Part shown: in pieces, positions 26,109 to 54,496 of the stretch
How positions within the stretch are numbered: the stretch's first letter is position 1
How the letters are laid out: every line of letters starts with the position of its first letter
Virus record (IMG/VR): IMGVR_UViG_3300037114_000023
Coordinates: 1-54,605 of that record
DNA length: 54,605 nucleotides
Reading direction: 5' to 3' (one strand)
From: a virus
Program-made: the position numbers and the translations under genes
The notes under the pieces: model-generated
Databases searched by the model: none
Seen by the model: the letters and a program-made list of their open reading frames with translations, nothing else
Told to the model about the DNA's origin: nothing

Positions 26109-28412
26109 ATGGCAGGAACAGTTCCAACATTTCCTACGGTGGTCACGAGGGCGCAACTTGGTGTCCCGCTTACCGACACGCAGATGGACGCCAACTGGAC
26201 CGGCATACGGCAATACTGCCTGACGCTCGCCGCGCTCATCGTCCAGTCGCTCAACGCTGATGGCACGCTCACTAATGGGTCGGTTGGCTCGAACGCCTTG
26301 CAAGCCGCCGCGGTAACGCTGGCATCGCTCAATCCTTCGCTTCTCTATTCGATTATCCCCGTGGATACCGACGCGGGAAAAACGAACGCTTATTCGATAA
26401 CGGCGCGCGGCGGTGAGGGTGGAACGAACCTTGTGCCCGGCGGGTCGGTCTATGACGGCAACGGCAATTTCGCCCTGACCGGACTTACGCCGAACTACGG
26501 CTATTTCTGGACACCCAGCGCGACGAACACGAATGACATAAGCTGCATCGTCAACAGCCAGCTTACCATCACGACGCCGGGCGGTGGAGCGTTCACGGCG
26601 ATAACCACGGGCATAACGCTTACCGGCACTCCGGGCGATGCCGTCACCGCGACGGTGATTCAGTCCGCACCGATCAACGCCTACAAGCCGCAACAGGTTT
26701 TTTGGATATGGACACTCAATCCAAATACGGGGCCAAGCACGCTCAATGTAAATAATTTAGGCCCAGTCCCAATCCTCCTGAATGGACAGCCGTTGCAGGC
26801 GGGATCAATTCTCGGGCAGGGTGTGTTCATCGTGGTTTACATGAATGGCGCTTTCAATCTCGTTGGCGGCAATGCGTCGGCCAACAGCACTACTGCGTCA
26901 GGACAGACCATTAACTACACATTTGAAGGAACCACCTTGTTTTCGTCCGGAAATATCGCCATACCGGCGACCACGTACAGCGTGGCGCATGGTTTTGGCA
27001 GTGTTCCCAGCAGTGTGGCGGTGTTCCTTAAGAAAGTGGCGGCGGATTCAACGGGACCGCTGGTGGGACAACTTGTGCCGATTGGGGAGTTTCAGGTTGG
27101 CACATCAGCAGCCTTTGTCGTTTCGTTCGATGCGAACCTTATCACTGTCAGTCCCCAGTCTGGAACCGTCGCGCTAGCCGGCACGTCCATAACTCCGGCA
27201 AGTTGGAATCTAGTGGTCAACGCGGCCCTGCAAACCAGCGTGAGCAACACTGTGTTTCCGGCCTTGACCTACTGGACACAGTACGTGGCTGGAGCGGTTT
27301 CGTATGGCGACAATCTATTAGTTTGGAACTTCGGATATTATACGAGCCTGGTCAACGGTTTCGCCATCAATCTGACCACCAATTTGGTGACGCCGCTTGC
27401 GCCATTTAGCGTGGGCACTCCAACTGTCCAGAACCACAACGTATTCAAAAGGGCGAGCGGCGCGATTCAGGATATTTTCTGCGGCAGCGACGGCATCTAC
27501 GCCATCTCCGCGACCAACCCGATCCAGAACCTTGTGCCGGCGGCGAGCGTTTATGCCAGCAACGGCTTGTTTACAATTACAGTTCCGGCATCAACCGCAC
27601 TGACAATCACGCCGGGAACCAACGAACTTGCCTACGGTCTTAATGTGACCGGAACGTACCCGAGCGGGACGGGTTATTCCGCGTTTACCGGCGTCCCGGT
27701 AAATATTCCCAATACCAACACCTATACAACCCTGACGCTGGCTGGCAATCCTGGGTCAAGCGTTACGGCGACCGTGGTGAATACCACAACTGCGGTGTGG
27801 GCGCCCGTTCAAATCAGCAATGAGTGGACGAATTTCTACTATAAGCCTGCGTGGATCACGGAGAGCGGCGGTAATATCAGCGCCGTTTACGTCATTAGCG
27901 GCGGCATCGGCAATGGCACGCTCAACGGGCTGGCGATGTTTGAAGTGCCGACCGAGACGGCGGCGAGCGAGGTTGGGGCCGGAGCCACGAGGCCGGATCT
28001 GAGCAACGCCAACATTGGAAACATTGCGCCGTTCAATGTGTGGTATCCGGCGGGGGCGGTGGCGGCGAATCTCTATCTTGTCCAATACAATCCGTTCACG
28101 CGACGGCTTTACGTCATCACCGACCAGATTGGGTTGCTGCATATTTTCAGTTTCCCGAATGGAACGGACGGGGCCGGAGGAAATGACATCACGGTCTGGT
28201 GGGCGCTCACTAATGGAGCGACTAAGTACGGTTATCTCTCGTATGAAAAAAGCATCGGGCTGGCTGGCTTTGGCGCTGGCAACACCGACACTTCGCGGAC
28301 GCAGATTGCGGTCGAGATAAACCAGAACACCGGAAAAGAGGTTGCGATTGTGATGACGAACTCTGGCTACAACAACGTCGGCAGCGTAACCCGCATTCCG
28401 TGGGTGGAATAA
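26109..28412 (+). CDS. Tail fibre or tailspike protein
   Basis: 767 residues, no signal peptide. The N-terminal ~90 residues are helical and charged, typical of an attachment domain (GVPLTDTQMDANW). Then comes a beta-rich, Gly/Thr/Asn repeat region. The 'FWIWTLNPNTGPSTLNVNNLG' segment and 'YMNGAFNLVGGNA' are standard in phage tail fibres. A second unit repeats an 'ITLTGTPGDAVTATVI' phrase (about residues 180-195 and 540-560). It would contact the host receptor. Confidence 0.75.
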   Translation: MAGTVPTFPTVVTRAQLGVPLTDTQMDANWTGIRQYCLTLAALIVQSLNADGTLTNGSVGSNALQAAAVTLASLNPSLLYSIIPVDTDAGKTNAYSITARGGEGGTNLVPGGSVYDGNGNFALTGLTPNYGYFWTPSATNTNDISCIVNSQLTITTPGGGAFTAITTGITLTGTPGDAVTATVIQSAPINAYKPQQVFWIWTLNPNTGPSTLNVNNLGPVPILLNGQPLQAGSILGQGVFIVVYMNGAFNLVGGNASANSTTASGQTINYTFEGTTLFSSGNIAIPATTYSVAHGFGSVPSSVAVFLKKVAADSTGPLVGQLVPIGEFQVGTSAAFVVSFDANLITVSPQSGTVALAGTSITPASWNLVVNAALQTSVSNTVFPALTYWTQYVAGAVSYGDNLLVWNFGYYTSLVNGFAINLTTNLVTPLAPFSVGTPTVQNHNVFKRASGAIQDIFCGSDGIYAISATNPIQNLVPAASVYASNGLFTITVPASTALTITPGTNELAYGLNVTGTYPSGTGYSAFTGVPVNIPNTNTYTTLTLAGNPGSSVTATVVNTTTAVWAPVQISNEWTNFYYKPAWITESGGNISAVYVISGGIGNGTLNGLAMFEVPTETAASEVGAGATRPDLSNANIGNIAPFNVWYPAGAVAANLYLVQYNPFTRRLYVITDQIGLLHIFSFPNGTDGAGGNDITVWWALTNGATKYGYLSYEKSIGLAGFGAGNTDTSRTQIAVEINQNTGKEVAIVMTNSGYNNVGSVTRIPWVE

Positions 28413-28427
28413 ACGAAAGGCAAAATT

Positions 28428-28676
28428 ATGAGAGACAAAAACTGGATCGAGAAAGCGGTGAAACATCCGGGCGCATTAAAAGCGAAGGCATCGCGTTCGG
28501 GAGAAAGCACCAAGGCGTTTGCCTCGGAACATGCCGGATCTCCCGGAACACTTGGCAAACAGGCCCGGCTTGCGGAAACTTTGATGTCCATGCACACCGC
28601 CGGACGTGCGGCCACGGACGGGGAAAAGGCTTCGATCACCGCAGCACATCATCAAATGGGCGGCGAAAACTATTGA
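28428..28676 (+). CDS. Small conserved phage protein, unknown
   Basis: 82 residues: 'NWIEKAVKHPGALKAKA' at the N-terminus, then 'GKQARLAETLMSMH'. Small basic proteins with 'NWI..AIKHPGAL' and 'GKQARLAKTLKS' phrases are widespread in tailed phages, near structural genes. Function is not known to me; a DNA-associated or internal head protein is plausible. The leader is GGCAAAATTATG. About 145 bp of non-coding DNA follow before the terminator, in which I saw no tRNA. Confidence 0.65.
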   Translation: MRDKNWIEKAVKHPGALKAKASRSGESTKAFASEHAGSPGTLGKQARLAETLMSMHTAGRAATDGEKASITAAHHQMGGENY

Positions 28677-28821
28677 CCTTCCGGTTGCGCGAGATACTTT
28701 CCACCTGTGCAGTTTAGGGTTGCCGTAGGCTGTGCGGTCGCTGGTTGGGTCTGCACATTTCATATAGTTGCCCGACCGGCCCTTCTGAGCCTCGCTGCGA
28801 CTGGGTAATCACAGTCATCGT

Positions 28822-28853
28822 AAAAGTGCGCTTCAACCGAAGCGCACTTTTTG
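28822..28853 (+). terminator. Strong hairpin terminator
   Basis: A perfect 13-bp stem AAAAGTGCGCTTC/GAAGCGCACTTTT (28822-28834 with 28839-28851) with an AACC loop. The arm bases give a U-rich 3' end on the plus strand, and the opposite A-tract could make it bidirectional. It closes the fibre unit. Confidence 0.85.
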
Positions 28854-28882
28854 TTGACACCCCACCCCACCCCGGCTAAATA
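28854..28882 (+). promoter_or_regulatory. Possible sigma70-type promoter
   Basis: A perfect -35 hexamer TTGACA (28854-28859) begins one base after the terminator hairpin. With a 17-bp spacer the -10 region is TAAATA (28877-28882), a weak match. The predicted start (about 28889) is only a few bases before the ATG at 28895, implying a very short or absent leader. Confidence 0.4.
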
Positions 28883-28894
28883 TTGGCGAATCAG

Positions 28895-29467
28895 ATGGGC
28901 AAAGACTTTACATTGCTGGTAAAAGACCACTTCACCACCAGACCGAATGACATCCGCAAGGGCGCACTCATGCTGGATTATCAGGTTCGCAATCACGATG
29001 GCGTTGACTACGATGGAGTCGGCATTGGACCGGACCCAGGGATTAAACCGCTAATCGAGGACGCAGTGGGATTTACAATCAAGCAACGGCTTCTGTTCTT
29101 CCGGCTGGGCATGACAGGGATAAAAACAGCGGGCTATATTCATTGCGACCAGAATTGTGGTCAATACGCAGGCGTCCTTTATTTGAACCTGCCCCACCAG
29201 CGTTACGGCGGCACTTCATTCTGGAGGCACAAGGAATTTGAGATAAGCGAAATGCCGGACAACGCGAACGATGTCGCCGTGGCGACTCTCCGCAATGACA
29301 GTCTGGACGAAAGCAAGTGGGAACGCGACGGGCATGTCGAAATGCGCTTTAACCGATTTGTAACTTATCCGGCGCGACGTTTTCATAGTCGCTATCCGAA
29401 TGTCATTGAGGCTGCGACGAAAGAGGAAGGCCGGTTGATTCTGGCCGTTATGTATGACCGAGTCTGA
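28895..29467 (+). CDS. 2OG-Fe(II) oxygenase (DUF6445-like)
   Basis: 190 residues from ATG 28895; a TTG at 28883 is an upstream alternative. The double-stranded beta-helix motifs are visible: H83-x-D85 in 'YIHCDQNCG', then 'AGVLYLNLPHQRYGGTSFW', and the distal iron His164 with Arg166 for 2-oxoglutarate in 'ARRFHSRYP'. Such enzymes hydroxylate small molecules, proteins or nucleic acids. The family sits beside sugar or peptide modification genes in many bacteria. It overlaps the methyltransferase by 14 bases. The metal triad is intact, so activity is likely; the substrate is unknown. Confidence 0.75.
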   Translation: MGKDFTLLVKDHFTTRPNDIRKGALMLDYQVRNHDGVDYDGVGIGPDPGIKPLIEDAVGFTIKQRLLFFRLGMTGIKTAGYIHCDQNCGQYAGVLYLNLPHQRYGGTSFWRHKEFEISEMPDNANDVAVATLRNDSLDESKWERDGHVEMRFNRFVTYPARRFHSRYPNVIEAATKEEGRLILAVMYDRV

Positions 29468-30083
29468 AACATTCCGCCAGCAGTTCAAGCAGCATCACTC
29501 TAAAGAGTCTGCCGACACGCTCATGCTGTCCAACATCGCGCACCTTGAACGGTTGATGAAGTTGCTGCCGCCAAACGCGCGCGGTCTTGAAATCGGCTGC
29601 TTCAAGGGCGGAGCGACCGTCTGGTTTCTGGAACACGGGATCGAGCGCATGACGGTGATTGATACCTTCGAGGGCAGCCCGGAGCATCAGAACATTGTGA
29701 AGCCGGGCGAGATACGGGCGGCGTTCGACGAAGCGGTCAAGCCCTACGCTGGCCGTGTGGCTGTGAGCAAGGGGAAGTCCAGCATGAGATTGCCGATATT
29801 ACTGCAAGGCAATCATTCCGGTCTCCGAAAGACCGCTCCAACGCTTTACGATTTTATCTACGTGGATGGGAGCCATGATTCTGTTGACGTGGTGTTGGAC
29901 GCCATACTCGCGTTCAAGCTGCTCAAGCCGGGAGGGGTGATGTGCTTTGATGATTACGAGTGGTGCTATTATCTCGACGCTTTCAGGAACCCGAAGCCCG
30001 CGATTGACTTCTTCCTTGCGAGCCATGAAGGGAAGTTTACGTTGCTGGAAAAGCATTATCAGGTGAGCATTCGGAAATTATGA
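29454..30083 (+). CDS. Class I SAM methyltransferase (TylF/Methyltransf_24-like)
   Basis: 209 residues. Motif I is 'LEIGCFKGGATVWF' (about 45-58), the acidic end of strand 2 is 'TVIDTFEG', and motif IV/V are 'YDFIYVDGSHDS' and 'LLKPGGVMCFDDYEW'. The 'VDGSH' and 'DDY' phrases are typical of the TylF/macrocin-O-methyltransferase and CmcI-like clade, which act on sugars or small molecules with a metal. It is coupled to the oxygenase, suggesting a joint pathway. A protein or glycan substrate is possible. Confidence 0.75.
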   Translation: MTESETFRQQFKQHHSKESADTLMLSNIAHLERLMKLLPPNARGLEIGCFKGGATVWFLEHGIERMTVIDTFEGSPEHQNIVKPGEIRAAFDEAVKPYAGRVAVSKGKSSMRLPILLQGNHSGLRKTAPTLYDFIYVDGSHDSVDVVLDAILAFKLLKPGGVMCFDDYEWCYYLDAFRNPKPAIDFFLASHEGKFTLLEKHYQVSIRKL

Positions 30084-30152
30084 AAATTGGGAGGCGTGTC
30101 AGTAAAACTACGAAGTTTACAATGCTGCGCCGAGTGATATTGTTAGAAGGTA

Positions 30153-30509
30153 ATGCAAGAATTGAATGAACTCGCGCGCGCTCTTGTTGAGCGGTGGGAG
30201 CATCAGCATAACCAAATAATGTCCGCCCTTCAACGGGTGGAGCAACAACAGGAAAAAATAATGAGCGCAATCACAGACTTCGCAGCCGCCGCACAGGCGA
30301 GCTTCACCAAGGTAAGTGCCGATTTGGACAGTCTCTCGACTGACATCGCCGCCTTGAACGCACAAATCGCCGCCTTCAACAATTCATCCGGCACGTTGAG
30401 CGCAAGCGATCAGGCCGCACTGGACGGTATCCAGACAGCCGCAGCCGCCCTGGCGACCAAGGCCGACGGGATTGTTCCCGCACCGCTGCCTCCGGCTCCG
30501 ACAACGTAA
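30153..30509 (+). CDS. Helical coiled-coil protein
   Basis: 118 residues with a fair ribosome site (AGAAGG) before the ATG at 30153. The first ~35 residues form a coiled coil (HNQIMSALQRVEQQQEK), and the rest has Ala-rich heptads (LDSLSTDIAALNAQIAAF) and a Pro-rich end. A later start at 30261 is possible. Small proteins of this kind are common in tail regions. It is the last gene before a terminator. Confidence 0.55.
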   Translation: MQELNELARALVERWEHQHNQIMSALQRVEQQQEKIMSAITDFAAAAQASFTKVSADLDSLSTDIAALNAQIAAFNNSSGTLSASDQAALDGIQTAAAALATKADGIVPAPLPPAPTT

Positions 30510-30529
30510 CCGACGACACAAATAACTTG

Positions 30530-30560
30530 AACGCCCGTCAGAAATGGCGGGCGTTTTTGT
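30530..30560 (+). terminator. Hairpin terminator with GAAA tetraloop
   Basis: An 11-bp stem (30530-30540 with 30545-30555) with one G-U pair and a GAAA loop is followed by TTTTGTTT. It ends the oxygenase/methyltransferase unit. Confidence 0.85.
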
Positions 30561-30606
30561 TTGCAAGCGTGGGATTTTGAAACTAGCCTGAGAGCCATCA
30601 AATAAT

Positions 30607-31386
30607 ATGCGAGTCTTTATCTCCGCTCACTGCCGCAACCCCGACCTGTTCGACGCCACGAAATTCGTTTTCAAAACACTGCGCGTCGGATTCCCGAACT
30701 CAGAAATAATCGTTTATGACAACGCCCTGAGCCAGCTTCACCGTTCCGAGATACAGGAACTTTGCCGGAAAAACACCTGCAAGTTTCAGCATATCCCACA
30801 GGCGGTTTCCTACGGCGGTTTAATCTGGCAGATATTCAGCAGCATACTCGCCAGCGATCAGGATGAACCGTTCTGGCTGTGCGACACCGACATCGTGTTC
30901 TGGGATAGCATGGAGCAATTTGAATTCGAGACGGCGATGGCTGGCCGGCATATCCCCAAGTTTTTCGACACGTACACAAAGTGCATCACCATGCCGCGAC
31001 TGCATACCAGCCTGCTTTACATTGACCCCGCCAAAGTTCGCCGGGAAATGGACATGCTGCTCGAAAACTTCCCCCGCGAGACGCCGCACAATCCGATGGT
31101 AAATCCGGTTTTCCCATTTTTCATGCCTTCACCCGAGGGCAAGGACGAATATTTCTTCTATGATTTGTGCGCGCCGATGAGTTATATGTTGAGCCAGACG
31201 CGGTTTACCGAGAAACACCTTGATTGCTTTGACCACGCTAATTGCGGCACGTTTGCAGACCTCCTGGAACCGCATGGACACGAGGGAATGGTGGCGCGAC
31301 AGAAGGCGATGTTTGCGAATCCGGAGACGATGCGCGGATTATGGAAAGAGCAGGATAAATATTTCGCGTATCACGCCGTCAAATGA
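30607..31386 (+). CDS. GT-A type glycosyltransferase candidate
   Basis: 259 residues. 'RVFISAHCRNPDLFDATKFV' starts a Rossmann-like fold with a Lys/Arg-rich helix, then 'SEIIVYDNA' and the metal-binding DxD at 93-95 (FWLCDTDIVFWD). 'PRLHTSLLYIDPAKV' resembles the acceptor side of GT-A enzymes. It would transfer a sugar from a nucleotide sugar to a protein, glycan or DNA base. The stop overlaps the cupin start (ATGA), so the two are co-translated. Confidence 0.7.
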   Translation: MRVFISAHCRNPDLFDATKFVFKTLRVGFPNSEIIVYDNALSQLHRSEIQELCRKNTCKFQHIPQAVSYGGLIWQIFSSILASDQDEPFWLCDTDIVFWDSMEQFEFETAMAGRHIPKFFDTYTKCITMPRLHTSLLYIDPAKVRREMDMLLENFPRETPHNPMVNPVFPFFMPSPEGKDEYFFYDLCAPMSYMLSQTRFTEKHLDCFDHANCGTFADLLEPHGHEGMVARQKAMFANPETMRGLWKEQDKYFAYHAVK

Positions 31387-31904
31387 AAACTGATTCACAG
31401 CCGGTAATCGAACTTGGGCCATCCGTCGGGGATGTCCTGGAGGATTTTGTCGCGTGGTATCTCAAGACCTTTGGCGGTGTACCGCCGTCGCCCCATGACG
31501 GCGTGGGTTACGTCGGAAAGTTTTCCCTGCTGACTTTCTACCGGCAAAAGGAGTTTCAGGTTCAACTCACGATTTGCAAACCGAACTCCAGGATTCCCGA
31601 CCATGCCCACCCGAACGTGGACACGATGGTTTCGTACGTTTGCGGCGAACTCTATTTCAGGGTTGACGGGAAAGAGGTTTTCAAACCGGAGGATATTTTC
31701 CAGACGGAGGACGGGCGCACGTCCAAGAATTTCAAGTTTATGCGCGTCAAGCCGGGGCAGATGCACGGGGCGACCATTGGTGACAAGGGGGCAGCGTTTA
31801 TTACTTTTCAGCGGTGGCTATCCGGCACGCCGAAAAGCGTGGAGTTGGATTGGGATGGACCGCCACTCAGCAAGGAACATTCAGAAAGGGAACTATATAC
31901 ATGA
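31383..31904 (+). CDS. Cupin-fold protein
   Basis: 173 residues. Cupin motif 1 is 'RIPDHAHPNVDTMVSYVCG' (H74, H76 and downstream residues) followed by 'ELYFRVDG', and motif 2 has 'VKPGQMHGAT' (H128), so a metal site is likely. The protein could be an isomerase, dioxygenase or sugar-binding protein. It is coupled to the glycosyltransferase before and the DNA methyltransferase after (ATGA overlaps at both ends), suggesting a sugar-modifying partner. Confidence 0.65.
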   Translation: MKTDSQPVIELGPSVGDVLEDFVAWYLKTFGGVPPSPHDGVGYVGKFSLLTFYRQKEFQVQLTICKPNSRIPDHAHPNVDTMVSYVCGELYFRVDGKEVFKPEDIFQTEDGRTSKNFKFMRVKPGQMHGATIGDKGAAFITFQRWLSGTPKSVELDWDGPPLSKEHSERELYT

Positions 31905-32398
31905 CACCACTAATTGACCGTGTTTGGGAAATGCCGAACCGTTTTACGTTTAAAATGCGTTGCGTAGCGAGCCTTCTCAAAGAAGAAATGCAAGGCACAT
32001 GGATTGACCCATTCGCCGGTGAAACCAGCCCAGCACAACTGCGCAACGATGCAGATGAATCACGCCATGCGGAACATCACTTAGACGGTCTGGATTTTTT
32101 AAAATCTCTACCGGATAAGACTTATGATGGCATTCTATTTGACCCGCCCTATTCGGTGACACAAGCCTTGAGGAAATATAAACCACGACAAGGAGGCACG
32201 GCGGGGCGAAGTGAGTATTGGGCCAAGTGTATGGACGAGGCGGCACGTGTCATAAAAATTGGTGGCAAGGCAATTTGCTTTGGATGGAACTCAAACGGTC
32301 TCGGAAAAAAACGTGGATTTCGGTTGGCACGCATGTTGGTAATTGCGCATGGAGCCTGCCACAATGACACGATTGTAACAGTAGAGACAAGTATATAA
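31901..32398 (+). CDS. Orphan adenine-specific DNA methyltransferase
   Basis: 165 residues from the ATG that overlaps the cupin stop. Motif I is 'WIDPFAGETSPA', motif IV is 'DGILFDPPYS', and the end reads 'ICFGWNSNGLGKKRGF' and 'HNDTIVTVE'. This order matches a widespread family of small phage N6-adenine methyltransferases. It lacks a separate target-recognition domain and has no endonuclease partner here, so it is probably used to protect phage DNA or for regulation. The DPPY catalytic motif is intact. Confidence 0.75.
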   Translation: MTPLIDRVWEMPNRFTFKMRCVASLLKEEMQGTWIDPFAGETSPAQLRNDADESRHAEHHLDGLDFLKSLPDKTYDGILFDPPYSVTQALRKYKPRQGGTAGRSEYWAKCMDEAARVIKIGGKAICFGWNSNGLGKKRGFRLARMLVIAHGACHNDTIVTVETSI

Positions 32399-32420
32399 TT
32401 CCCTTCAGAAAGGCTAAAAG

Positions 32421-32687
32421 ATGAAATGCAAACATGAGCAATTTGAGGCCAAGGTGGATGTCAACAGACTTTCCGACAGTGGGAGGTTCTGCGCTGACAT
32501 CAAAATAAAGTGCCTCCAATGCGGGGAGTATTTCCGTTTTCTTGGGTTGCCGTGCGGGATTGACCTTGACGGTGCGGCGGTTTCCGCGGATGGAACGGAA
32601 ATGCGCGTGGCGATTGGAACCAATGAGACGGTGGCGAACATCATTGACGGAAAATGTCCAGTTGGATTCACTGTGCGCAGGGGATGA
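32421..32687 (+). CDS. Conserved phage zinc-binding protein
   Basis: 88 residues. A Cys/His pattern (MKCKHEQFEA and IKCLQCGEYF) is followed by 'RFLGLPCGIDLDGAAVSADGTE', a phrase seen in many tailed-phage proteins of this size that I recognise but cannot assign a role. It overlaps the acetyltransferase start (ATGA). Confidence 0.65.
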   Translation: MKCKHEQFEAKVDVNRLSDSGRFCADIKIKCLQCGEYFRFLGLPCGIDLDGAAVSADGTEMRVAIGTNETVANIIDGKCPVGFTVRRG

Positions 32688-33127
32688 TACGCGCACTACA
32701 ACCATACGAAGTCGGCCTTTGCGTCGAAGGCGGCAAACTCTTTTTTAAGGAGGGCGATCTTCCGGGAGGCTTCGACGCCAAACATTTCTGCGCCACTTGG
32801 GCGCAACTAATCACGGACAAACGGGCGGCGATTCTCGCGGGATTCACGGATGCCAATGTCATCACGGGTGCATTGGGCGCTGTGCTGGCTCCCGGATTGT
32901 TCAACGCCAAGACTTACGCCACCGAAGCATTTTGGTACGTGATACCTGGCTATCGCGGCCACGGCGTCGAACTTCTGCTGGCTTTTCAGGAGTGGGCCAA
33001 GAACGCCGGGGCGCACTACGTAGCCATGATTCACCTTCTCAATTTGCAGCCGGAACATCTGTCGAGACTGTATCGGAAAATGGGGTACAACCCCATTGAA
33101 ACAAACTACTTGAAGCCGCTTACGTAA
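32684..33127 (+). CDS. GNAT-family N-acetyltransferase
   Basis: 147 residues from the ATG overlapping the previous stop. The acetyl-CoA loop is 'FWYVIPGYRGHGVELL' (R/Q-x-x-G-x-G/A type), followed by a helix (FQEWAKNAGA) and the C-terminal 'LYRKMGYNPIETNY' typical of GNATs. It could acetylate a virion protein, a host protein or a small molecule. Similar genes lie before ejection-protein genes in other podoviruses. Confidence 0.75.
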   Translation: MIRALQPYEVGLCVEGGKLFFKEGDLPGGFDAKHFCATWAQLITDKRAAILAGFTDANVITGALGAVLAPGLFNAKTYATEAFWYVIPGYRGHGVELLLAFQEWAKNAGAHYVAMIHLLNLQPEHLSRLYRKMGYNPIETNYLKPLT

Positions 33128-33151: not shown

Positions 33152-34375
33152 GTGAACAATTTTCTTCTTAATCTCAGCCGTGTGTTGGCTTATAGCGTGG
33201 TTTACGAAACCCGCTTGGCGATGTTTGACGGTGCGGTGATGGAGGCGTTTGACCCACAAGGAAGTATTGTGAGCGGAACAATCGGCGCGATATTAGGCTC
33301 GAACGCCCAACGCCAGGCGGCCGATACGGCTGCTGACGCAGCCAAGGCATCGCAAGCCGCCACCAATGCGCAAAATCAGTCGCTTTTTAATCAGGCCCAT
33401 GGATCAACAGGAAGTGCTGTTTTCCCTCAGTATTTGACTGGCGAGGGCGGGGCGGGTCTTTTCGAGCCGGAGCTTGGGCAAGATTTGGTAAAATCCTACG
33501 CAGCGGCAAACGTCCCGCTTTCCACTTTCCAATCGGCCACGGACAAAACGGCTGGCGCACGCAATCAAGCCCTTGACTTCACCAACAGCATTTTCAACGG
33601 CGGCGTGACAAACAAAATGCTGACGAATGTGGCTCCGGTCCAGACGCAACGGCTGGCCACGGCGCGGTCATCCTCGCTGGATGCGTTGCACAAAACCTTG
33701 GACCAGATTGACGCGAGCCAGGCCAATCGGGGATACGTGGGCGACAGTTACGGAAACCGGCTTTTGAGTTTCCAAGCCGGAAAAGAGGCGGGGAATTCCA
33801 TCGGTGCCGCACAGTTGCAAAACAAGCAGGAGACGGCGGACATCCAGAATTATGGAGACGTGACGCTGCCTTTGCAGAACATCAACCTGCCGTATCAGAT
33901 GAACCAGCAACAGGCATCGGCGGCGTTTCTTCCGCAGGACGAATATCTGGCGAGTCTTGGGCAGCGGATGCAGCCTTTCAACATGCTCAAACTCGGATAC
34001 ACAGGTCCATTCCAGTATCAGCCGTTGCCGACGCGGGGGCCAGCGGCGTTCAATTCAGGCGCGACAGCACTATCGGCGTTCGGGGGTGGCGCGGGACAAC
34101 TGGGCGGCGCGGCGATGAATTATTTCGGAACCAACAATCTTTTGAGCAGCGGATACGGGGGTTCGACCATTGGCAATGGCGCCAGCTATGGCCAGCTACC
34201 GTCTGGTTTCAGTGATACCTTGACCGAGGACAATGCGAGCGATCCGTTCTATGCGTCCGGCGCGGCGGCTGCGGGCGCGGGTGTTGCGAATAACGGACTT
34301 GATTTTAGCGGGTCAACAGCATCGGGTGTGGACTCATTAACCGGCGGAAGTTCGCTGTTTGGGGGGAGCGTTTAA
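33152..34375 (+). CDS. Internal virion (ejection) protein candidate, T7 gp14-like position
   Basis: 407 residues from GTG 33152; ATG at 33239 (about 378 residues) is an alternative. A glycine-containing hydrophobic stretch near the N-terminus (GSIVSGTIGAILGSN) is followed by long Ala/Gln-rich helices (AADTAADAAKASQAATNAQN) and a Gly/Ala-rich C-terminus. These features match DNA-ejection proteins that insert into the membrane. It precedes two further large internal proteins, as in T7 (gp14, gp15, gp16). Confidence 0.55.
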   Translation: MNNFLLNLSRVLAYSVVYETRLAMFDGAVMEAFDPQGSIVSGTIGAILGSNAQRQAADTAADAAKASQAATNAQNQSLFNQAHGSTGSAVFPQYLTGEGGAGLFEPELGQDLVKSYAAANVPLSTFQSATDKTAGARNQALDFTNSIFNGGVTNKMLTNVAPVQTQRLATARSSSLDALHKTLDQIDASQANRGYVGDSYGNRLLSFQAGKEAGNSIGAAQLQNKQETADIQNYGDVTLPLQNINLPYQMNQQQASAAFLPQDEYLASLGQRMQPFNMLKLGYTGPFQYQPLPTRGPAAFNSGATALSAFGGGAGQLGGAAMNYFGTNNLLSSGYGGSTIGNGASYGQLPSGFSDTLTEDNASDPFYASGAAAAGAGVANNGLDFSGSTASGVDSLTGGSSLFGGSV

Positions 34376-34376
34376 T

Positions 34377-35924
34377 ATGGCAGAAGCAGTCGTATCACCA
34401 GCGGTAAGGCCACTTGACTTTGGTTATCAGATTCCGAATCTGACAGACCAGATGCGTTCGGCCAGCGCCCAGACCTCGCAGGCAGCGGCTCCGATTGCCG
34501 AGGCGGCGTCAAACTTATCCAGGGCAAGAATCGAATTCGCGTTGCAGAATTTGAACGCGCAAAAGGCTTTAGAACTGGCAGGGTGGCAGCATCAGTCACA
34601 GATGCAGCGCAATGAAATGATGTATAAGAGGTTTTTGGATCAGCAGAAACTCAAGGGCACTCAGATGCTTGAGCAGATCAAGGGAAAGAACGACGCGGAC
34701 ACAATTAAACAGCTAAACACCACGATTCAAAGATATGGCGGACAACCGATGGTGCGTCAGAGCGGTGAGAGCGACAGTGACTACGCGGCCCGGCTTGGAA
34801 CTGCGGCAGTAGGCGCGAAGGCGCACGCAGTCGCAGCGGACACCACGGCAGCACTTCATTGGAATGATGAACTCGAAAAACAGAAAGATGCGGCGACTAG
34901 GTTGCAGGCACTTCCGGCGGTCAAGGCAGAGTTGGGGGCGGCACTCGCAAATCCCGGAGTGAATTCACAGGCCGATAATTATGTCGCGCAAAACTTTAAC
35001 AAATGGTTGAGCCAAGTCAGGCCGGAGCAGGCAGACCTGATAATGACGGCGTTACAGAAACAGCCGAATAAAGACGGCGAGATGATGGTGCTTAAAAACG
35101 CCGGGATTCTTGCTCAGTATCAGGATTTCAGGAATGGTGCGTTGCAGGACGAGGCGTACCGATTCCTTAAAAATGCCGGTACTCCGCAGGGAAAAGCGTT
35201 GGCGACGATTAATGAAAACATAAAATTTGCCCAGGATAGGTACAACGGTGTGCTGATGACGGAGGCGAGCGGGAATACTGGGAGACAGGTTAGAAAATCC
35301 TACGCATCGGATATTGAGAACGGTGTTCAAGATACGCTGTTGCAACGGAAGAATGACGCAATAAAGGCAGCTCAGACCCCGCCACCACCCCCTGCGGGTA
35401 GCGGATCTGGGACTACCATCCCAACCCCAAATGGTGTCACCCCGCCGCCACCGTCCCTTTTCGGGCCGGGAGCGAGTGTGCCGGCCAGATTCTTGCAGGA
35501 TAATGTGGCAACTCCAACAGTCAGTGCCCCAGCAAACCCGAACCCTATGTCTCCGCAGTGGACAACGCTGCCAAACGGCGCGCGAGCTTTCATCCCAATG
35601 CCTGTGTCTCAAAGCGACCGCACAAACGGTGTGATATTGCCGGGTGGCAGTATAAACCCGTACTTACGGGCACCTGTCATTGGGCCACCAGAAAACGCCA
35701 TAGCAAACGGGGTAAACCCGCCCGGTGGAGTGACGAACTCACCCGCGACAATGATGCCGGCAAGCCCATTTCTCGTCCCGCCAGTTTTGCCCGGCCCTCG
35801 CGGCGTGTCTGTTTCTCCCGACAATTACGCGCCCGCTGCGCCGCAAGGTTCTCCGATGGACGCTGGTGGCGACTACGGAAGTTTCCTGCGAGATCAATAC
35901 TTTATGGGCATGGGTGTGCAGTAG
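34377..35924 (+). CDS. Internal virion protein candidate, T7 gp15-like position
   Basis: 515 residues from ATG 34377, preceded by a purine-rich GGGGGGAG. The first 330 residues are helical with coiled-coil features (AGWQHQSQMQRNEMMYKRFL), and the last ~180 are Pro/Asn/Gly-rich and disordered. It sits between the gp14-like and giant proteins and probably forms part of the ejectosome. There is no sequence signature beyond architecture. Confidence 0.5.
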   Translation: MAEAVVSPAVRPLDFGYQIPNLTDQMRSASAQTSQAAAPIAEAASNLSRARIEFALQNLNAQKALELAGWQHQSQMQRNEMMYKRFLDQQKLKGTQMLEQIKGKNDADTIKQLNTTIQRYGGQPMVRQSGESDSDYAARLGTAAVGAKAHAVAADTTAALHWNDELEKQKDAATRLQALPAVKAELGAALANPGVNSQADNYVAQNFNKWLSQVRPEQADLIMTALQKQPNKDGEMMVLKNAGILAQYQDFRNGALQDEAYRFLKNAGTPQGKALATINENIKFAQDRYNGVLMTEASGNTGRQVRKSYASDIENGVQDTLLQRKNDAIKAAQTPPPPPAGSGSGTTIPTPNGVTPPPPSLFGPGASVPARFLQDNVATPTVSAPANPNPMSPQWTTLPNGARAFIPMPVSQSDRTNGVILPGGSINPYLRAPVIGPPENAIANGVNPPGGVTNSPATMMPASPFLVPPVLPGPRGVSVSPDNYAPAAPQGSPMDAGGDYGSFLRDQYFMGMGVQ

Positions 35925-35939
35925 TTAAATGGTCAAGCC

Positions 35940-38900
35940 ATGCCTGACCAACTCACAATAGAACAGCTTTTACAAGGTACTCCAAAGATACCGGAGGAAG
36001 GCGGACTGGATTCGCCCGCGCCACAGTCGAAGGGTAATCAGCCAGCGAGCACGTTGACGCTGGAGGGTTTGCTCAAGGGGACACCAGGGGCGGATCAGGA
36101 CGCAGTTCCACAGACTACCGCAATGGGCACAGCCGCACGCGCCGCAGTCTCGAACATCGGACCGGGTGCGGCTGCGGCGGCGGCTTTTCCGATTGGCGCG
36201 GAAAAGGGCGCTGCGATAGGGGCGCTTGTGCCCGGTGCGGGGGAAACCGGATTGTCGGAAGCTGCTGGAGGGCTAATCGGTGGAACCATCGCGGCAGGCG
36301 CGGCGGCATGGGCGGCAGCAAAGGCCCAACACGCACTAGCCTCGACGCTGGCTCCCGAGACCACGGAGAAGTTCAACCAAGCGGAAGCCGCGGGCGAGGA
36401 AGCGCATCCCGTTGCGGGTGCGATCGGGCGGCTGGCCACCATGCTTCCAATGTTCGAGTTTGCTCCGCAGAACACGGTGGGCGGACTATCGGCGCTTTAC
36501 AAGGCGGCTCGTGGCGGGACGCTCACGGTGGCGGAGAAGCTGGCGGCCAAAACTACAGCGAGTCAGGTGGGATTGCAGACCGGTCTTGGGGTGGTTCAGC
36601 CATTGATGTTTGGAGAAAGCCCGACAAAGAAGGGGATTGCAGAGGCTTTTGTCCAGTCACTTTTGCTGGGGCATCCTCGATATGAGATTTTTGGCGCTCC
36701 GGCAGCGGAGGCCATTGGGAAGGAGGAGGCGGCGACGGACGCGCAGACCGAGAAAGCGCAGGGTGTCGTTCAAAATCCAGCCTCAATCTACAGTCCGCCG
36801 CCGCCGCCCGACTTGACGCCGGAACAGCGCGGGCAACTGTCGGAATTGGCGGCTCGCACGGCATCGGGCGCGCCGGAGGACGTGAACGACGCCCAGCATT
36901 TGAAACTAATGGGCGAGAATGAGAACGCCCGGAAGTATTACGAGCAGCAAAAGCAGGGTTGGGCGCAACTCATGGCCTACACGCTGGCCGGCAAGTCCAA
37001 GATTGAGACGGTGGGGGATGGTGGTCAGGAATCTCCGCAAGCGCAGCCTCAAAAGTGGTATTCCTCAAATGATTCCGTTGGTCCAAAGCAGACACCACAG
37101 GGCGATACAATTCACGGATTATCACTCAGCCAAGACCCGCTTTACGCCGGAGAGTATTCAAAGACTGGGCAGGTTCACGAATTCGACTTGTCTGGGGCAA
37201 AACTGAAACCTGTCAGTTTTGACTATGGGATGACCATTACCACCGACAAGTTGAATCAAATCAGGTCGGAGGGTTACGACGGGGTATCGTTCGATGGGAT
37301 GCATGGCCCGGAGGTCGCTCTGGTAAACGATGTGGCTAAAAAGACCGGAACCGTCAACGCCTTGCAGGAGAAATTCAACGAGGCGATTGCGGACGGCAGG
37401 CCAATAGGGCGAGTGGAGCAGAGGCTCTACGCAGTGAAGGGCTTGCAGTTGCCGGAGGTTTACCACCAGCAGGAGGATGGCTCATGGATACGCGCAACCG
37501 AACCTGGAAAGCCACCTGGCGGCGATGCTGCACGCCTCGAACAACTCCGCGCCATCCCAGAGTCCCAACGCACGCCGGAACAGGCCGCGGAATTCAACGC
37601 GCTTGTGGCTAAATCCGGTTCCGTTAAGGACCAGATGGCGGCTGAATTTGCGAAACTCAAGGCGGCACAACCAATAGTTGACCAACCGGTAAACAATCCG
37701 CCCGTGGCTCCCGGCGGCAGCACACCCGCGATGGCGGAGTGGACTAAACATCAGGGCGATCCCGCTGAATTAGTCCAGAGGATGCAAAACACGGCTGAAT
37801 CCGGCAAGGTGGCCGTGGCGACTGGCGAGGGCGGTGTTGGCAGGAAGTCCGCCACAATGTATCAGGATTTGACCGGCAAGCCCGCTGGCGAAGCCAAGGA
37901 GCTTGTGCGGCAGGACGTGGCTGGATCCAAGGAAGCCGGGGCGCAATCCCGCAAGCTGGTGGCCATGCTGTCCCCGGACAAGTCCCATGTTCTCGTCGGG
38001 ACGGCCAGCGAAACCAGGAGCGGCGAGACGCGGACTTTGAAGGTCTCGACCTACGATGTGGGTGCTGGCCGTAAATCGCCCGGCGGTGAGCATTTCGCCA
38101 GCAATTACGATAAAATGGTGGCGGATGGCTGGCAGCCGTTGGCGAGTCTGAAAACCGACAAACCGGCCAAGGGATTCTTCGCTACGTATTCGCCAGAGCA
38201 GTGGAAAACCATTGAGACGGAACTGCGGGCGAGCCATCAGGCGGCGCAACGCACGGCGGAGGCGATGGAGCAACACCTTGCGGCTGGCAAAGACTTTGGG
38301 CGCGACGTTACCGTTAACGCTGACGAAACCGGAGAACACCCCCCGGAGGAAGCGCCGACACCTGAAGCGGCGGTTGAACACCCGCCGGAACGGGTTGTAA
38401 CGGCTGAACATGCGGAGGCTATCGCAGAGGCAATCAAGGGCTTAAAACCCGAGGACATTGCCGACCAGAACTCGATGGCGTTAGCGATAAAGAAGGCCGG
38501 ACCGGATGCGGTCGAGGCTTTCAAGGTCATGGTTCGCCATGCCTTCGATGCCGGTTTTCCAGAAGATAAAGCGGTAAGTATCGTGCATGAAATACTTTAT
38601 GAACATTCAAGAAGCGGCGAAACGAGTGGGCCAGAAGTGGAAAAGTCCTTCCTACAGAAAGTCGGCCAGGGCGGCGATGAAAACGCTGGGAATAACACCG
38701 GGAAGCCTCCAGGTCCAGACACAGGACCAGGTAGCGAAGCAGCCGGAAATAAACCAGGCGCAAGCGGAACTGAAACGGGAGCAAACCCAGATGCAGAAGG
38801 TGGCGGCAAAGGAGGGAGCAAACCCAATCCCGCAGGTACTCCCCTCGGCACTCCCGCCAGCATAGCCGGAAAGACAGGTAAGATTTTTCTGCCGGCCAAG

Positions 38901-41900
38901 CTGGAAAGGCCGCATGACATCGTGGACGAGATTCAGGGTCAGGTGGGTAAGATACGGTCGCAGAATGCAGCCAAGCCCGGCACGGAGGATCATTACGCCA
39001 CAGACGCTTATAAGCAGGTTCGCAAGGCGTTTCCCAATATGTTCTCCGATACCGGCAGCACGGCGGACCAAGTGGTATCCGCGCTCATGCGAACCGGCCA
39101 CTTTCAGGAAGGGGCCACCGTGGATGATTTGTGGGATGCGATGCTGCGCGCGCGCGGCGAGCGGACGGCTCATGCCCGCGGCCAGTTGCCGGAACAGAAG
39201 GCGGACAAGTTTCAGCAGGCGGTATCGGATAATCTTGCCAAAAAGGGTAGCCACAAGCTGTCGGTCGGCGAACTGTCGGTCGGCGACACGTTCAGGATTA
39301 AAGGCGCGAGCTTCGAGGTAAACCATATTGATCCGGACACCGGAGAGGTCCAGGTAAAGGATGGCAAGAAATTCGGCTATCAAGTCATCCCGGATGGTGC
39401 GGACATAGCCGTGGATGCTGGTTCGCTAAAGCAAAATCCTCCGGAATCCGGCGGTGACGACCCGTTCTCGGACGAAAATGTCCGCAATCGCACGCGCCAG
39501 GCCAAGGAGGAAGTTGAGAATCTTCGCCCGGGGGACGCCCATACCGCGAGAACGCTGGACGTGGTTGAGCGCAACCTTACCGCACTCGGCATCAAGGTCA
39601 GGCGGATTATTGACCCGTTGGTTGACCATTTCAGCACAGGTTCGTACAAGGAACTCACCAATGGCCGGGGCAACGCGGAGAGGATTGTCACCTACTCGGT
39701 AGCTGACGCCCACAAGCCATCGGCTGACAGCCTCGTCAGTCTCTACCACGAGGTTTTGCACGCGATATTCGCCAGGGAAAGCCCGGAAATGCAGGCGGCG
39801 GCGCAACGGGCGGTGCGGGACGTGTCGAACGAGGAATTGGGAATCGGCAAGTTCAAGGAGCAAGTCCCTCAAAATTTACCGGAAAACGTGAGGGAAGGCG
39901 TCCAGCAGGAAGGGCGCATAGCGGAATCTCTGGCCCGAAAGCTGGTCAACGACGGATTTGACCCAGTGACCGCCAACAGCTTCATGCAACGCGCCGTGCG
40001 GCTGATACGGGACGTTTACAACGGCGCACTCATGGCACTGGCCAAGGTGGCGGGGTATCCCATCAGCCAGGAACGGGCACTGGCGTACTTCGAGAACCGG
40101 ATGAAGATGGTGGTTTCCGGCGATATGATGTCTTGGATTAACTTCCTCGGTGGACCAAGGATGAAGATGCCAGACTGGGACAGCCCGAACATCGGCGGCG
40201 TGGAGCGTTACCGCAGCATCAACTCAGTCAGTAACCCGCGCAAGTATCTGGACACCAAAGAGGGCGCACCGACGGGAATTGCCGCACTCAACCACTTTTT
40301 GACTTCGATGAAGGCCATCGCCCATGAGTGGGGCGTCTCCGCTGGCAATCTCGCCGGCATGACGGACGAGCAGGTCATGGCACGATATATCAACCTGCCG
40401 GAAAAGCTGGGCGACCAGGATTTGTTCACGAACGGCGACACGCCGCAAAGCCTGATCGCCGACGCGGTAAAGCAACACGGCGTTAGTCCAGACACTAAAA
40501 TTAGTGATTTGCCTAACGACGTGGCCAAACAACGGGCCTTGGTTGTGACACACGGAATGCTGTCCGCGGTGAAGGCGGAAATGGAGGGTGTCGCAGGCGA
40601 GGCTCGCACGCAATGGAACAAGGACGCTAACGCATTGGAGCGCAATACCAGCCAACTTGACCGCCTGGCCAGTCATTACGTGGACATTGATTACATGGCC
40701 AGGACGGCCAGGGACTCGATGCTGCAACTCGTCAAGGACGTTACCGGCGCCGTCCGGGGCATCCGGGATGTCTCGGCGAGAAAAGGCGAGGTCGAACAGA
40801 CCTTGGCGCAACTGGACCCTGCCAGCCAACTCAACGGCCAGTTGACGGCGCCGTACCGGAAGGCACTTGATGTAATACAAAAACGGCTGTCCGGCGAAGT
40901 GACCACGAATTTCGCGGATGCTCTGCAAACCATTGGCAGCATGGACATTGACTGGAAACGACCGAGCCATGACATTGCCAATGACTTGCTCGCCAAACAC
41001 AGTGAGAACCCGGAATTGAACCATGCGCTTCGGGAATTCCTTGGGGACAATCCGGAGTCGAAGGCGTTGCTGTCCACGTTGATTGCCTACGGTAAGGCCA
41101 ACAGTCATATGATGGACATGCTCGCGCTCCGGGCCGACCGCGCCAGCGAGAATAAGATTGAGGCTAACCAGATTTTGCGGGACATGGTGGGCGCGAGCAA
41201 GGGAATGCTCGCGGAACTCAAGCAGCGCATCAATTCCACGTTCGGGAAAAACATGCGGATGCGCGACCGGATGCTCCGGATTTCCGATAAGATGGATGAT
41301 TTGAGCGACCGCAACCATGACCTGTTGGACTCCATTGCCCGCAATAAATCGCTGGTGGACTTTCATGAGGACATTTTTAAACCGGCGGTGAACGGGGAAC
41401 TTGCGGCCGTAGAGAAGGAAACCGGCATCACGCTCAAGAATTTCGAGGTTGTGCATGACGCCGAAGTCTCCGTCCCTGCCAAGCCCGATGCGACCCCGGA
41501 CCAGTTCGCAACGAGAACGCTTAAAATTCGCACAGCCTTGGGCAAGCGCGGCGATTTGCCGACGCCATCGGCGGAGGTCATCGGCTGGCAGCGATCAATT
41601 CAAAAGTGGCTGGACAATCCGGAGAACCTGAAGTACGGGGCCAAATACAACGAGATGGCGGACGTGGCGCTGAAACTGAAAAACCACGCCATCAGCAATG
41701 AACACCTGAATATCAAAACGAATTTCCTGGAACGGATGCTCGCGCCGATACAGGACCGATGCCGACAGGCCGGGACAGAGGCGGCGCGATTGGCTGGGCA
41801 GGGGTTTAATAAATTCTCGTCGCTCGTCCGTGGCAAGCGGGAAATGGCCGTCCAGACCGGCACCAATTTTTCCGCGCAACTCAGCCGGGCAAAGAAGGCG

Positions 41901-44900
41901 TTGGGCTATCCCAACGTCGAAAACGGCGTCTTTTGGAAAACCATTATCTCGCCGCAGCTTCACGCCTTGCAGGATCGGGCGGACATCTGGGGGACTGCCA
42001 AGACGGAAAAGGAAATGATTGACCGGGCAGTCAACGCTGTCGCGGATGCCTTGAAGCTGAAAGACCCAGCCGCCAGGGATGCGGTTTCCAAGCTCATTCG
42101 GATTCACGCGGACAACTCGACCGAACTCCGCAACCACGGCGCGGAACTGGGGAACAAAGTCAAGGACATCGGCGGCGCACCTAAGAGCAGCATCTTCCGT
42201 CTGGCGCTGGGCGTTGCTCCCCTTGTGCTGCCCAGGGCGACCACGGCTCAGGCGATTGATTTTTACCACGAACACATGGGGCGGTCATGGGGTGGTGATA
42301 AATTGGATCTTCCGGCAATACGGGACATGTACGACAAAGACCCGGATCAGTTGCGGGCATCGCTGCAAAACCGGTTTACCAAGCCGGTGTGGGATTGGTT
42401 CGTGAAGTCACTGGCCGAAAATGACAAGCCGCACTTCTCGGCACCGCCGGAGAATGGTCTTTCCCCGCTGGCCGACCGCGAGAACATCATTAAGGCATAC
42501 CAAGGGGCGCACGGCGATCCTGTGGCGTTTGCCGAACTGATTGCCGCGCTGCACGACCACAAGGCCGATGGCGCTTTCGTGGCCGACACCTTGGATACCA
42601 TGCAGAATTTCAGCAACTTGCTGCGAACCATGGCCGGTGACGAGGCGGAGTCCGTGACGCGGGGAAGTCCAAACCCGCCGCGCTTCATCGTGGACGCCCG
42701 GCATTGGGAAGCCGCGCCGAAAGAGTGGTGGGATTACCTGATGACCGACCAGAACACCATGCTCCGGGTGATTAACGGGCAGGCGCACCAAGCGGCCTTT
42801 GGTCGAAATGGCGAGGCTCAGGACAATCTGCTGTCCACCGCCATGAACGAGCAGCGGGAATTCTACACGAAATATCAGGCATGGCGACAGGAAGCGCAGA
42901 ATGTCAATCCCGGCATCAAAGAACGGGAGTTGCAGGCCATGTTGAAGGCGCGCGCGGAGAAGGAGGGTATTTCCTTCGACGCGCTTAAAAACGCCAAGCG
43001 AAACTTGAACGGTTTGACCAACGCCGCTCAGCATTACGACGCCATTCAGTCCATGAACAATTCCGGCAAGATACCGGAACTCCTGCCGTGGCTCCGGGTG
43101 TTGCATACGATTGCCGGCGGGACGGTGGCCGGTGCCGGTACAGCGATCACGGCGCACAGCGTCTTTCTGGAGCAGCCGGCGAGACACCTTGGGTTCGGCC
43201 CGCGCTCGCTGGCGATGACCGGGCGTGCCATCACCGATTTGGCCGGCACGATGGCGAATTCATTGTTGCAGGCGTTCGGTCATTCCGTGGTTTACGAGGC
43301 GCGGCGCACGCTGGACGCCAATGATGGCGGCATCTATGACCCGATTAACACCAATAAAGACCGCTACACGGTGGCCTATGAACACGCGCACGCGGCTTAC
43401 CGCGACTCCAGCAGGCTCGGGCAGACGGTCGGCACCGCAGCGGATGTCGGGGCGGCGGCGATGCAACATGACGTGTGGGGGCCGGGAGCGCGGGAGAAGG
43501 CATTGGCGCGGCAGGCGGCGGGGCAGCCGGTGGCGCCCAGCCTCAAGGCGTTGTCGCCCTTCCATTGGATTGCCAAATGCCTGGAGATTTCCAACTTCAT
43601 CACCTGGGAGCGGCATATTGAGGGTATGGTCGCGGCCGGGGCGAATCATTTTGAGTCAAACCCGGAACACTACGCGGACAATGATTTCAGGTTCACGCCC
43701 AAAACCCTCAACGGCTTCAATCCCGGCGACCGCGAGTTTAATTTTCTGAGTGACCGTCTGGCGCAGTACGGGGCGAGCATCGAGCAGCTTTCGCGGGAAG
43801 CCTATGACAATCGCGGGACCAGCAAGCCGATGTTGTCCCATGAAATGCGGAAGAACATCCAGCAGGTCGTGCTGAACGAGATAACGCTGGAATCGTCACT
43901 GACGAGCCGGATGCCGTCACTCCAAACCAAGGGACTCGGCACGGCGATGAATCCGTTTCTGGGGTGGCCGCTGCAAAAGACCTATCAGGTTATGCGGGGG
44001 TTCCGGCAACCGGACGGCGTGGCTTCGGCTTTCCGAAACGGGCTGACGCCATACCTGGCGATCCTGCCGCTGGGCATGGCGGCGGCATGGCTCCGCAACA
44101 AGTTCGACGAGGACGTGCTGGGGAGGAAGCAGAATGTTTCAGACATCAGCCAGATACATGACGTGAAATCCGGCCTAATGACCGCCCTGGACAATGCGAG
44201 CCGCGTGGGAACCTTCGGACTGCTGGGCGAGGGAGCGAATTACTTTTTGAGCAACGACAACGTGCGACCGCTCTCGGTGGACAACCGGATTTTCTTCCTG
44301 AACACCTTGGAAAACGCTTTCAATGCCGCGCGCGGTTTGTATCAGCAGACCGGCCCGCAAATTATGGCTGGAAACTTCGAGGGTGCGGAAAAAACCGCGA
44401 CGGATTATCAGACGGTCTGGAGGCCGATAATTCAATCGCTGGGCGGCAATGGATTGCTGCAAAACCTGGGTGCGGTGAATCATCTCCTGGCGATTGACGA
44501 CGCGGAAGCCCGCGTGAGCAACCGCATCTCGGTGAACAATTACCTGCGGGTGGCTGGCCGCGAACTGAATCTCGATGTCCGCACGTTTGGCGGGATGATG
44601 TCCGATCAGAGCGTGCCGGGTCCGATCAAGCCGTTTGTGGGAAAGATGGTGTTGGCGGCTTACGCGAACAACAGCGAGGACTTCAATTCCTCGATGCGCG
44701 ATGCGGTGCGGCAGGCGAAAACCGAGGGCATGACCTCCGACCAGGCGATGAAAAAAGTGGTGGGCATGTACGAGGCGCAAAGCCCGATCCGGATCGTGTT
44801 CAAATCTCCGCCGACGGAAATGGAATACCGGAAGCTCATCGCTCAACTGCCAGACAACGGGAAGCAATCCGTGCAACAATCCATCGCGCTATTCAACCAT

Positions 44901-45764: not shown

Positions 45765-46048
45765 GCCTTCCCCTCCGTCTCTTTCTTCGGCAGCACTTTG
45801 TCGAGCGCGGCGAGGGCTTCATCCCATTTTTTAGCAGAGGTGGTTCGTGACAGCAGTTGATTGCGAACCGGTTGCCATGCTTTAAATGCCTCTCTCGCCA
45901 ACTCCATCGCCTCTTGCGGCGCGGTAAAGTGGCGGGTGATAATGAGGGCTAGAACGTTCCTTGTAAAAGGACTGCTACCGCCAATTTCTTTCTGTATCTC
46001 CTCCGCCGCGTTAACAGCGAATGGAAGGGGTTGGGTGGGTTCGCTCAT
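45761..46048 (-). CDS. Small helical protein, unknown
   Basis: 95 residues from the ATG at 46048, which overlaps the previous stop (ATGA); a longer start at 46069 would overlap more. Helical with 'NVLALIITRHFTAPQEAMEL' and a basic/acidic C-terminus (KVLPKKETEGK). Its stop overlaps the next GTG. Unknown. Confidence 0.6.
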   Translation of the reverse strand: MSEPTQPLPFAVNAAEEIQKEIGGSSPFTRNVLALIITRHFTAPQEAMELAREAFKAWQPVRNQLLSRTTSAKKWDEALAALDKVLPKKETEGKA

Positions 46049-46488
46049 AAATTCAGGTTCTTCACCCATTTCATTTTTTGTTCCTGCGGCTGGTCAGTCC
46101 GTCTGTCGGGCCGCGTCTGCCAACTGCCATTTTTGGTCATGCCTTCACACTTCCAGCCCGAAGCCTTTAAACTAGTTCCGAGTTCAGTTTGAAGTATGAA
46201 TGTCTGGATTGATTTGAAAGCCAACTCCTTTGCCGCACGAGCTGCTTGAGCATAGAGGAATGAGCAGGCATTGGGCGTTCCGTCAGTTGTCAGGCGGGTA
46301 ACTTCCGCAATGTTTTTCTGGTCTGTTTGGCGAGCGACCGGCCTGCCAACGATAACACACCCCACAAGCCTACCGTTTACCGCCGCGCCAATACTGAATC
46401 TGTGGCCGACAACGGGCTTGTGATGGCGATGTAATTTTGCCACGAACTCATTTGCCTCAGTCAATTCGATTCTCACAGCTTTCAGCAT
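46045..46488 (-). CDS. XF1762-like conserved phage protein
   Basis: 147 residues from ATG 46488 (upstream in-frame starts overlap the preceding gene). The core reads 'ANEFVAKLHRHHKPVVGHRF', 'LVGCVIVGRPVARQTD' and 'AEVTRLTTDGTPNACSFLY', the hallmark of the XF1762 phage family, which has a GNAT-like look ('GRPVAR', 'EVTRL'). The family has no proven function that I know of. The C-terminal ~30 residues are polar and probably disordered. Confidence 0.75.
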   Translation of the reverse strand: MLKAVRIELTEANEFVAKLHRHHKPVVGHRFSIGAAVNGRLVGCVIVGRPVARQTDQKNIAEVTRLTTDGTPNACSFLYAQAARAAKELAFKSIQTFILQTELGTSLKASGWKCEGMTKNGSWQTRPDRRTDQPQEQKMKWVKNLNL

Positions 46489-46492
46489 AAAT

Positions 46493-54468: not shown

Positions 54469-54496
54469 AGGTTTTACTTTTGTTTTGTTTCTACCC

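Follow-up and report, generated by a model that had tools for sequence, protein, structure and literature searches.

An accessory island between tail and putative ejection genes of a podovirus-like phage carries both members of a recurrent oxygenase-acetyltransferase pair

GNAT acetyltransferases encoded at the junction of tail and internal virion protein genes are already known from phages, as are phage 2OG-Fe(II) oxygenases. In Lentibacter phage ICBM1 a GNAT gene stands alone between the genes for a "tail appendage" and "internal virion protein B", in T7 gene 13 lies between genes 12 and 14, and in SP6 a GNAT is encoded near the portal (head-tail adaptor) gene. The cobavirus GNAT has been suggested to correspond to T7 gp13, a protein proposed to act in virion morphogenesis (PMC6775973). 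The tight pairing of a GNAT with an oxygenase that we describe here is new relative to the literature and the annotated phage genomes that we searched. We found no publication joining an oxygenase, an acetyltransferase and ejection or internal virion proteins, no paper on the oxygenase family concerned (DUF6445), and no cultured phage with the pair among annotated phage genomes, where searches with oxygenases of two other groups returned only a distant marine/cyanophage type.

The window, IMG/VR virus record IMGVR_UViG_3300037114_000023 at its full length of 54,605 bp, comes from a short-tailed (podovirus-like) phage with a cargo slot between a tail gene and putative DNA-injection genes. The slot, its borders and its contents are as follows.

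26109-28412, plus strand: tail (fibre/appendage-like) gene that borders the slot on its left; 41-48% identity in relatives G001, G002 and G004
28428-28676, plus strand: 82-aa ORF, phrog_20603, function not assigned; extra to most relatives
28677-28821, plus strand: non-coding, strongly folding stretch (z -2.8)
28822-28851, plus strand: perfect 13-bp terminator, A/T-flanked, could act both ways
28895-29467, plus strand: DUF6445 2OG-Fe(II) oxygenase, 190 aa, assigned by Pfam, motif and fold
29454-30083, plus strand: O-methyltransferase of class I, metal-dependent type; shares 14 bp with the oxygenase gene
30153-30509, plus strand: 118-aa coiled-coil-like ORF with a Pro-rich tail
30529-30556, plus strand: 12-bp terminator, hairpin with T tract (z -5.2)
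30607-31386, plus strand: GT-A-like glycosyltransferase candidate with DxD motif "CDTD"; DUF6734 match sub-threshold only
31383-31904, plus strand: cupin-like protein, weak match
31901-32398, plus strand: DNA-methyltransferase-like protein (DPPY), phrog_11619 (1.7e-38)
32421-32687, plus strand: 88-aa Cys-containing small ORF
32684-33127, plus strand: GNAT acetyltransferase, phrog_1249, the regular oxygenase partner in other viruses
33152-34375, plus strand: gene in the position of internal virion/ejection protein B, which closes the slot on the right; G001 and G002 counterparts 53-58% identical
34359-45035, plus strand: a 521-aa and a 3031-aa ORF in the positions of ejection proteins C and D

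All genes from the accessory set at 30607-33127 through the ejection-position ORFs (33152-45035) lie on the same strand. The 3031-aa ORF (35940-45035) is very large for the ejection protein D position, and G001 and G002 contain segments homologous to it. The contig ends in a tandem repeat of ACCCCG/ACCGCG-type units (54481-54600).

Relatives of the phage carry the same slot with widely differing contents. A nucleotide search of the region found no match in annotated phages. Viral contigs yielded no relatives of the oxygenase, tail gene or methyltransferase when each was searched as a single sequence, and alignments were required (one, alignment A1, was too divergent for scanning). A capsid protein search gave three relatives, and a portal-protein alignment gave 59 viral loci plus three in bacterial MAGs. 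The tail gene at 26109-28412 and the gene at 33152-34375 are conserved neighbors in these relatives, including those with 65-73% identical portal or capsid proteins (G001, G002 and G004), while the genes between them vary. G001 has a single 160-aa ORF matching phrog_12032 ("short tail fiber protein"), with a similar-looking 166-aa ORF at the slot of the more distant L211/L212; G002 has a sulfotransferase-like ORF; and G004 has a radical-SAM gene and a GNAT. Among more distant relatives, a DUF6445 oxygenase and a GNAT that overlaps it fill the slot in four (G009, G013, G024 and G025), and the slot is empty in another four (G014, G019, G023 and G030). The G002 ORF (L014, 4708-5775; 355 aa) combines a sulfotransferase-like N-terminal half with a second conserved part (phrog_21390), and the G004 radical-SAM protein (CxxxCxxC; L088, 4379-5389, minus strand) adjoins its GNAT in the place of the oxygenase.

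In the window the slot holds an eight-gene set of extra enzymes. An earlier note on this DNA, made from the sequence alone, had described 28822-30560, the left part of this set, as a self-contained, terminator-bounded "moron" in the late arm. That the genes are accessory, that is non-core, is supported by the close relatives that lack the block or have other genes there. In the comparison with related phages that the note had proposed, the unit as such occurs in none of those examined, but the oxygenase is present at the same site in four. Nor is the label self-contained supported, since accessory genes run on to 33127.

The feature of the slot that recurs is an oxygenase gene adjoining a GNAT gene. 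Searching with the window oxygenase aligned to those of related slots yielded 27 viral oxygenase loci. In 24 of them the oxygenase has a co-directional GNAT (detected with a profile built from the GNATs of the slot) no more than 33 bp away. The remaining three are L119, whose contig stops 194 bp downstream, and L125 and L126, which have the two most divergent oxygenases. Because the loci include near-duplicate contigs (e.g., L112/L113 and L121/L122/L123), independent cases of the pair number fewer than 24. The order of the two genes varies among loci, oxygenase-GNAT or GNAT-oxygenase, and they often overlap. Genes downstream of the pair fall into three groups between which phmmer detected no similarity, each with a Gly/Ala-rich start; genes upstream are more diverse still. 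The downstream gene of L120 is phrog_598, "DNA ejection". At least three dissimilar groups of flanking genes indicate that the pairing is not one inherited block of a single close lineage, and together with the two gene orders they point to several independent arrangements. The pair is dispensable, being missing from about half of the relatives in which the slot is visible. In the window, 3.2 kb separate the oxygenase from the GNAT, an interval that contains six genes and the second terminator, so that a boundary at 30560 cuts through an evolutionary unit.

The window oxygenase has the features expected of an active enzyme. Its assignment to the 2OG-Fe(II) oxygenase superfamily, which the earlier note had made, is confirmed and narrowed to DUF6445 (39.9 bits against a Pfam gathering cut-off of 24), and 2OG-dependent oxidation is predicted. 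The start codon is ATG at 28895, with TTG at 28883 as an alternative. In an alignment of 24 oxygenases the Fe ligands H82, D84 and H163 (numbered from window position 28898) are invariant, and the 2OG-binding Arg, R179, is present in over 90%, the sole exception being a sequence truncated ahead of it. The AlphaFold2 model (pLDDT 92.6) is a double-stranded beta-helix that resembles PHD2 (Z 12.8 over 142 residues, 2.9 Å) and, within Z 12.0-12.8, the EF-Tu-binding Pseudomonas P4H and the chlorella virus collagen prolyl hydroxylase vCPH. Among the best matches these protein hydroxylases are tied with the small-molecule enzymes SnoN and OkaE, so the fold supports an active oxygenase and no particular substrate. 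A Pro-rich or collagen-like substrate was considered and rejected: Pro-rich scaffold segments occur equally in relatives lacking the oxygenase, and long collagen-like runs are absent. In the oxygenase tree the window gene is a long branch without a firm place, so that its link with the paired enzymes holds at the level of the family, with orthology a possibility.

We propose an accessory island of 4.3 kb (28895-33127), with the interval 28822-30560 as its left half, that would occupy the cargo slot between the tail gene and the ejection-position genes. The recurrent core of the slot would be the DUF6445 oxygenase and the GNAT, adjacent and co-directional elsewhere. In the window the two would bracket later insertions (the O-methyltransferase, coiled coil, glycosyltransferase-like, cupin, DNA-methylase-like and small ORFs), and the pair appears to have been split by insertion of this methyltransferase-to-small-ORF block. 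Separate acquisition of the window oxygenase and GNAT is a possible alternative to a split pair, given the long, unplaced branch of the oxygenase. The pair would be made late, along with the morphogenesis genes, and would hydroxylate and acetylate a protein; tail or ejection proteins are the most likely targets, and a host target is less likely. The location of the pair favors a target among virion or late-infection proteins, and its most likely role would be to be expressed late and to modify a virion protein or a host target while particles assemble. We assign this explanation as a whole a probability of roughly 60%. Direct support covers the slot with its varied contents, the pairing of the two enzymes, the conservation of the Fe/2OG residues, the folds and the separation of the two genes in the window. 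In a more specific version, uncultured podovirus-like phages would have a dedicated post-translational system, a DUF6445 hydroxylase plus a GNAT with genes placed exactly at the tail/ejection junction, that modifies the phage's own tail or ejection proteins in assembly, with an effect on infectivity. This version is speculative, and we would not expect it to hold in full.

Among the alternatives, the one that survives best is that small molecules or the host envelope, and not virion proteins, are what the enzymes modify (in auxiliary metabolism, glycan decoration or superinfection exclusion). We consider this possible, if unlikely. A related marine-virus oxygenase lies in a cluster of sulfotransferase, glycosyltransferase and sugar-nucleotide genes. 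The methyltransferase, called TylF-like in the earlier note, is a class I O-methyltransferase, and the label TylF holds only as a resemblance of fold and motif: Methyltransf_24 alone scored above its cut-off in a Pfam scan, with no TylF model listed at E<=1. The closest fold match of its model (pLDDT 90.3) is MeT1 (Z 19.2), which we take to be a sugar O-methyltransferase. Close behind come MycF (17.8), NovP (17.7) and SpnH (near 17-18), with COMT-type enzymes and MeT1 spanning 17-19.2. The likeness to these metal-dependent O-methyltransferases consists of the fold (Z 17-19) and an invariant Asp-Asp pair (D166 D167), but identity to MeT1, COMT and NovP/MycF/SpnH is only 13-19%. A glycosyltransferase-like gene lies within 600 bp in 18/80 viral methyltransferase relatives examined, and a GT-A-like gene follows the unit in the window at 30607. 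The glycosyltransferase-like protein of the window belongs to another family than the one encoded beside the methyltransferase in other viruses. Relatives of the methyltransferase in L128, L129, L131, L144, L155 and L169 recurrently adjoin a GT-A-like protein of ~246 aa (phrog_1574), in many cases close to genes for replication.

The methyltransferase could thus plausibly act on a glycan or small molecule, and it and the glycosyltransferase-like enzyme probably tailor one of these. However, the oxygenase-GNAT pair in podovirus-like loci is locked to morphogenesis genes, mostly without glycan genes, which counts against this alternative.

It is also conceivable, at a lower level of likelihood, that the island is passive cargo in an insertion-tolerant slot, where oxygenase and GNAT travel together without a joint function. 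The very different contents of the slot, a hotspot that is empty in four relatives, speak for this, but the pair persists alongside divergent sets of tail and ejection genes and in both orders, with its active-site residues intact.

Less probable again is a self-contained moron at 28822-30560 with its own promoter, expressed in lysogens and changing the host surface. Several of the observations behind it are sound. The first hairpin, AAAAGTGCGCTTC-AACC-GAAGCGCACTTTT, is a perfect 13-bp inverted repeat (28822-28851; -22.2 kcal/mol, z -7.4), the second terminator is present at 30529-30556, and so is the coiled-coil-like ORF. No other strong plus-strand terminator occurs in the 54.6 kb, where ~0.05 would be expected by chance (one stem of at least 12 bp with a T tract in all of 20 first-order shuffles), and these two bracket the unit. 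Furthermore, tblastn of the methyltransferase, coil, glycosyltransferase-like, cupin and DNA-methylase-like genes against the portal-related loci gave no match. Annotated phages gave none for the coil, glycosyltransferase-like and cupin genes. A tyrosine integrase gene (PF00589; 48704-49819, minus strand) suggests lysogeny, the phage being probably temperate.

Other points do not support autonomy. The TTGACA cited as promoter-like (at 28854, abutting the first hairpin) is followed by no -10 element passing a 9-of-12 scan, although the host promoter type may differ, and TTGACA occurs less often in the window than chance would give (17 vs 28.9 in shuffles); the scan found no promoter belonging to the unit. 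The GNAT, the usual partner of the oxygenase, lies outside the unit, and strong terminators are absent at the oxygenase-GNAT pair in 20/20 oxygenase loci, including pairs in the same slot of other viruses. In G001 (L011/L012), strong terminators flank the capsid gene (5859-5888 and 8562-8588 of the reverse complement), so in this group late-arm terminators do not mark an autonomous insert. The two in the window probably cut read-through into parts of the late arm, setting transcript dosage within it and not the bounds of an autonomous unit. Since the ejection-position genes lie downstream of both, read-through, antitermination or a further promoter must exist. Late-arm terminators are thus a poor guide to what moves or functions as one unit.

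Directly ahead of the first terminator, the 145 nt at 28677-28821 contain no convincing gene and fold into a branched structure that is possibly a small RNA. Searches gave no Rfam or DNA relative for the stretch, and a nucleotide search with 28660-28900 gave only 21-bp chance matches.

Hypermodification of phage DNA bases by the oxygenase, GNAT, DNA-methylase-like and glycosyltransferase-like enzymes is the least probable reading: the island does include a DNA-methylase-like gene, and a Mom-family (DNA-modification protein) match at 46045-46545 (minus strand; E 2e-5) falls just below the cut-off, but the pair is encoded in the morphogenesis region and not among replication genes, the DUF6445 structural matches, among those listed, are prolyl hydroxylases and small-molecule enzymes, and in most relatives the pair comes without a methylase or glycosyltransferase.

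Returning to late modification of a protein by the pair, its recurrence at the tail/ejection junction of divergent viruses is a testable lead to virion-protein oxidation and acetylation by phages, and it gives the unstudied DUF6445 family a functional context. Enzymes of this accessory kind in the late regions of phages tend to be catalogued singly, as auxiliary metabolic genes. The window oxygenase resembles DUF6445 (PF20043)/phrog_1644 in its family match and its HxD...H...R residues; nothing in our analysis accounts for the "minor coat protein" label of phrog_1644. DUF6445 members of Flavobacterium and Tenacibaculum differ from it in lying in other regions, with no annotated GNAT adjoining. 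Marine-virus (cyanophage-type) 2OG oxygenase/sugar-gene clusters share with the window an oxygenase of this family amid tailoring genes, but theirs is a large sugar-nucleotide cluster in which no GNAT is seen beside the oxygenase. The slot GNAT, placed between the tail gene and the internal virion protein B-position gene, matches T7 gp13 in position only; a profile comparison (hhalign probability 2%, E 0.023, 24 columns) did not establish homology of sequence. Cobaviruses (SIO1 and ICBM1) and T7 gene 13 are alike to the window in location between tail genes and internal virion protein B, and the ICBM1 and T7 regions, with no oxygenase annotated beside the GNAT or gene 13, differ from the viruses in which the two enzymes are encoded side by side.
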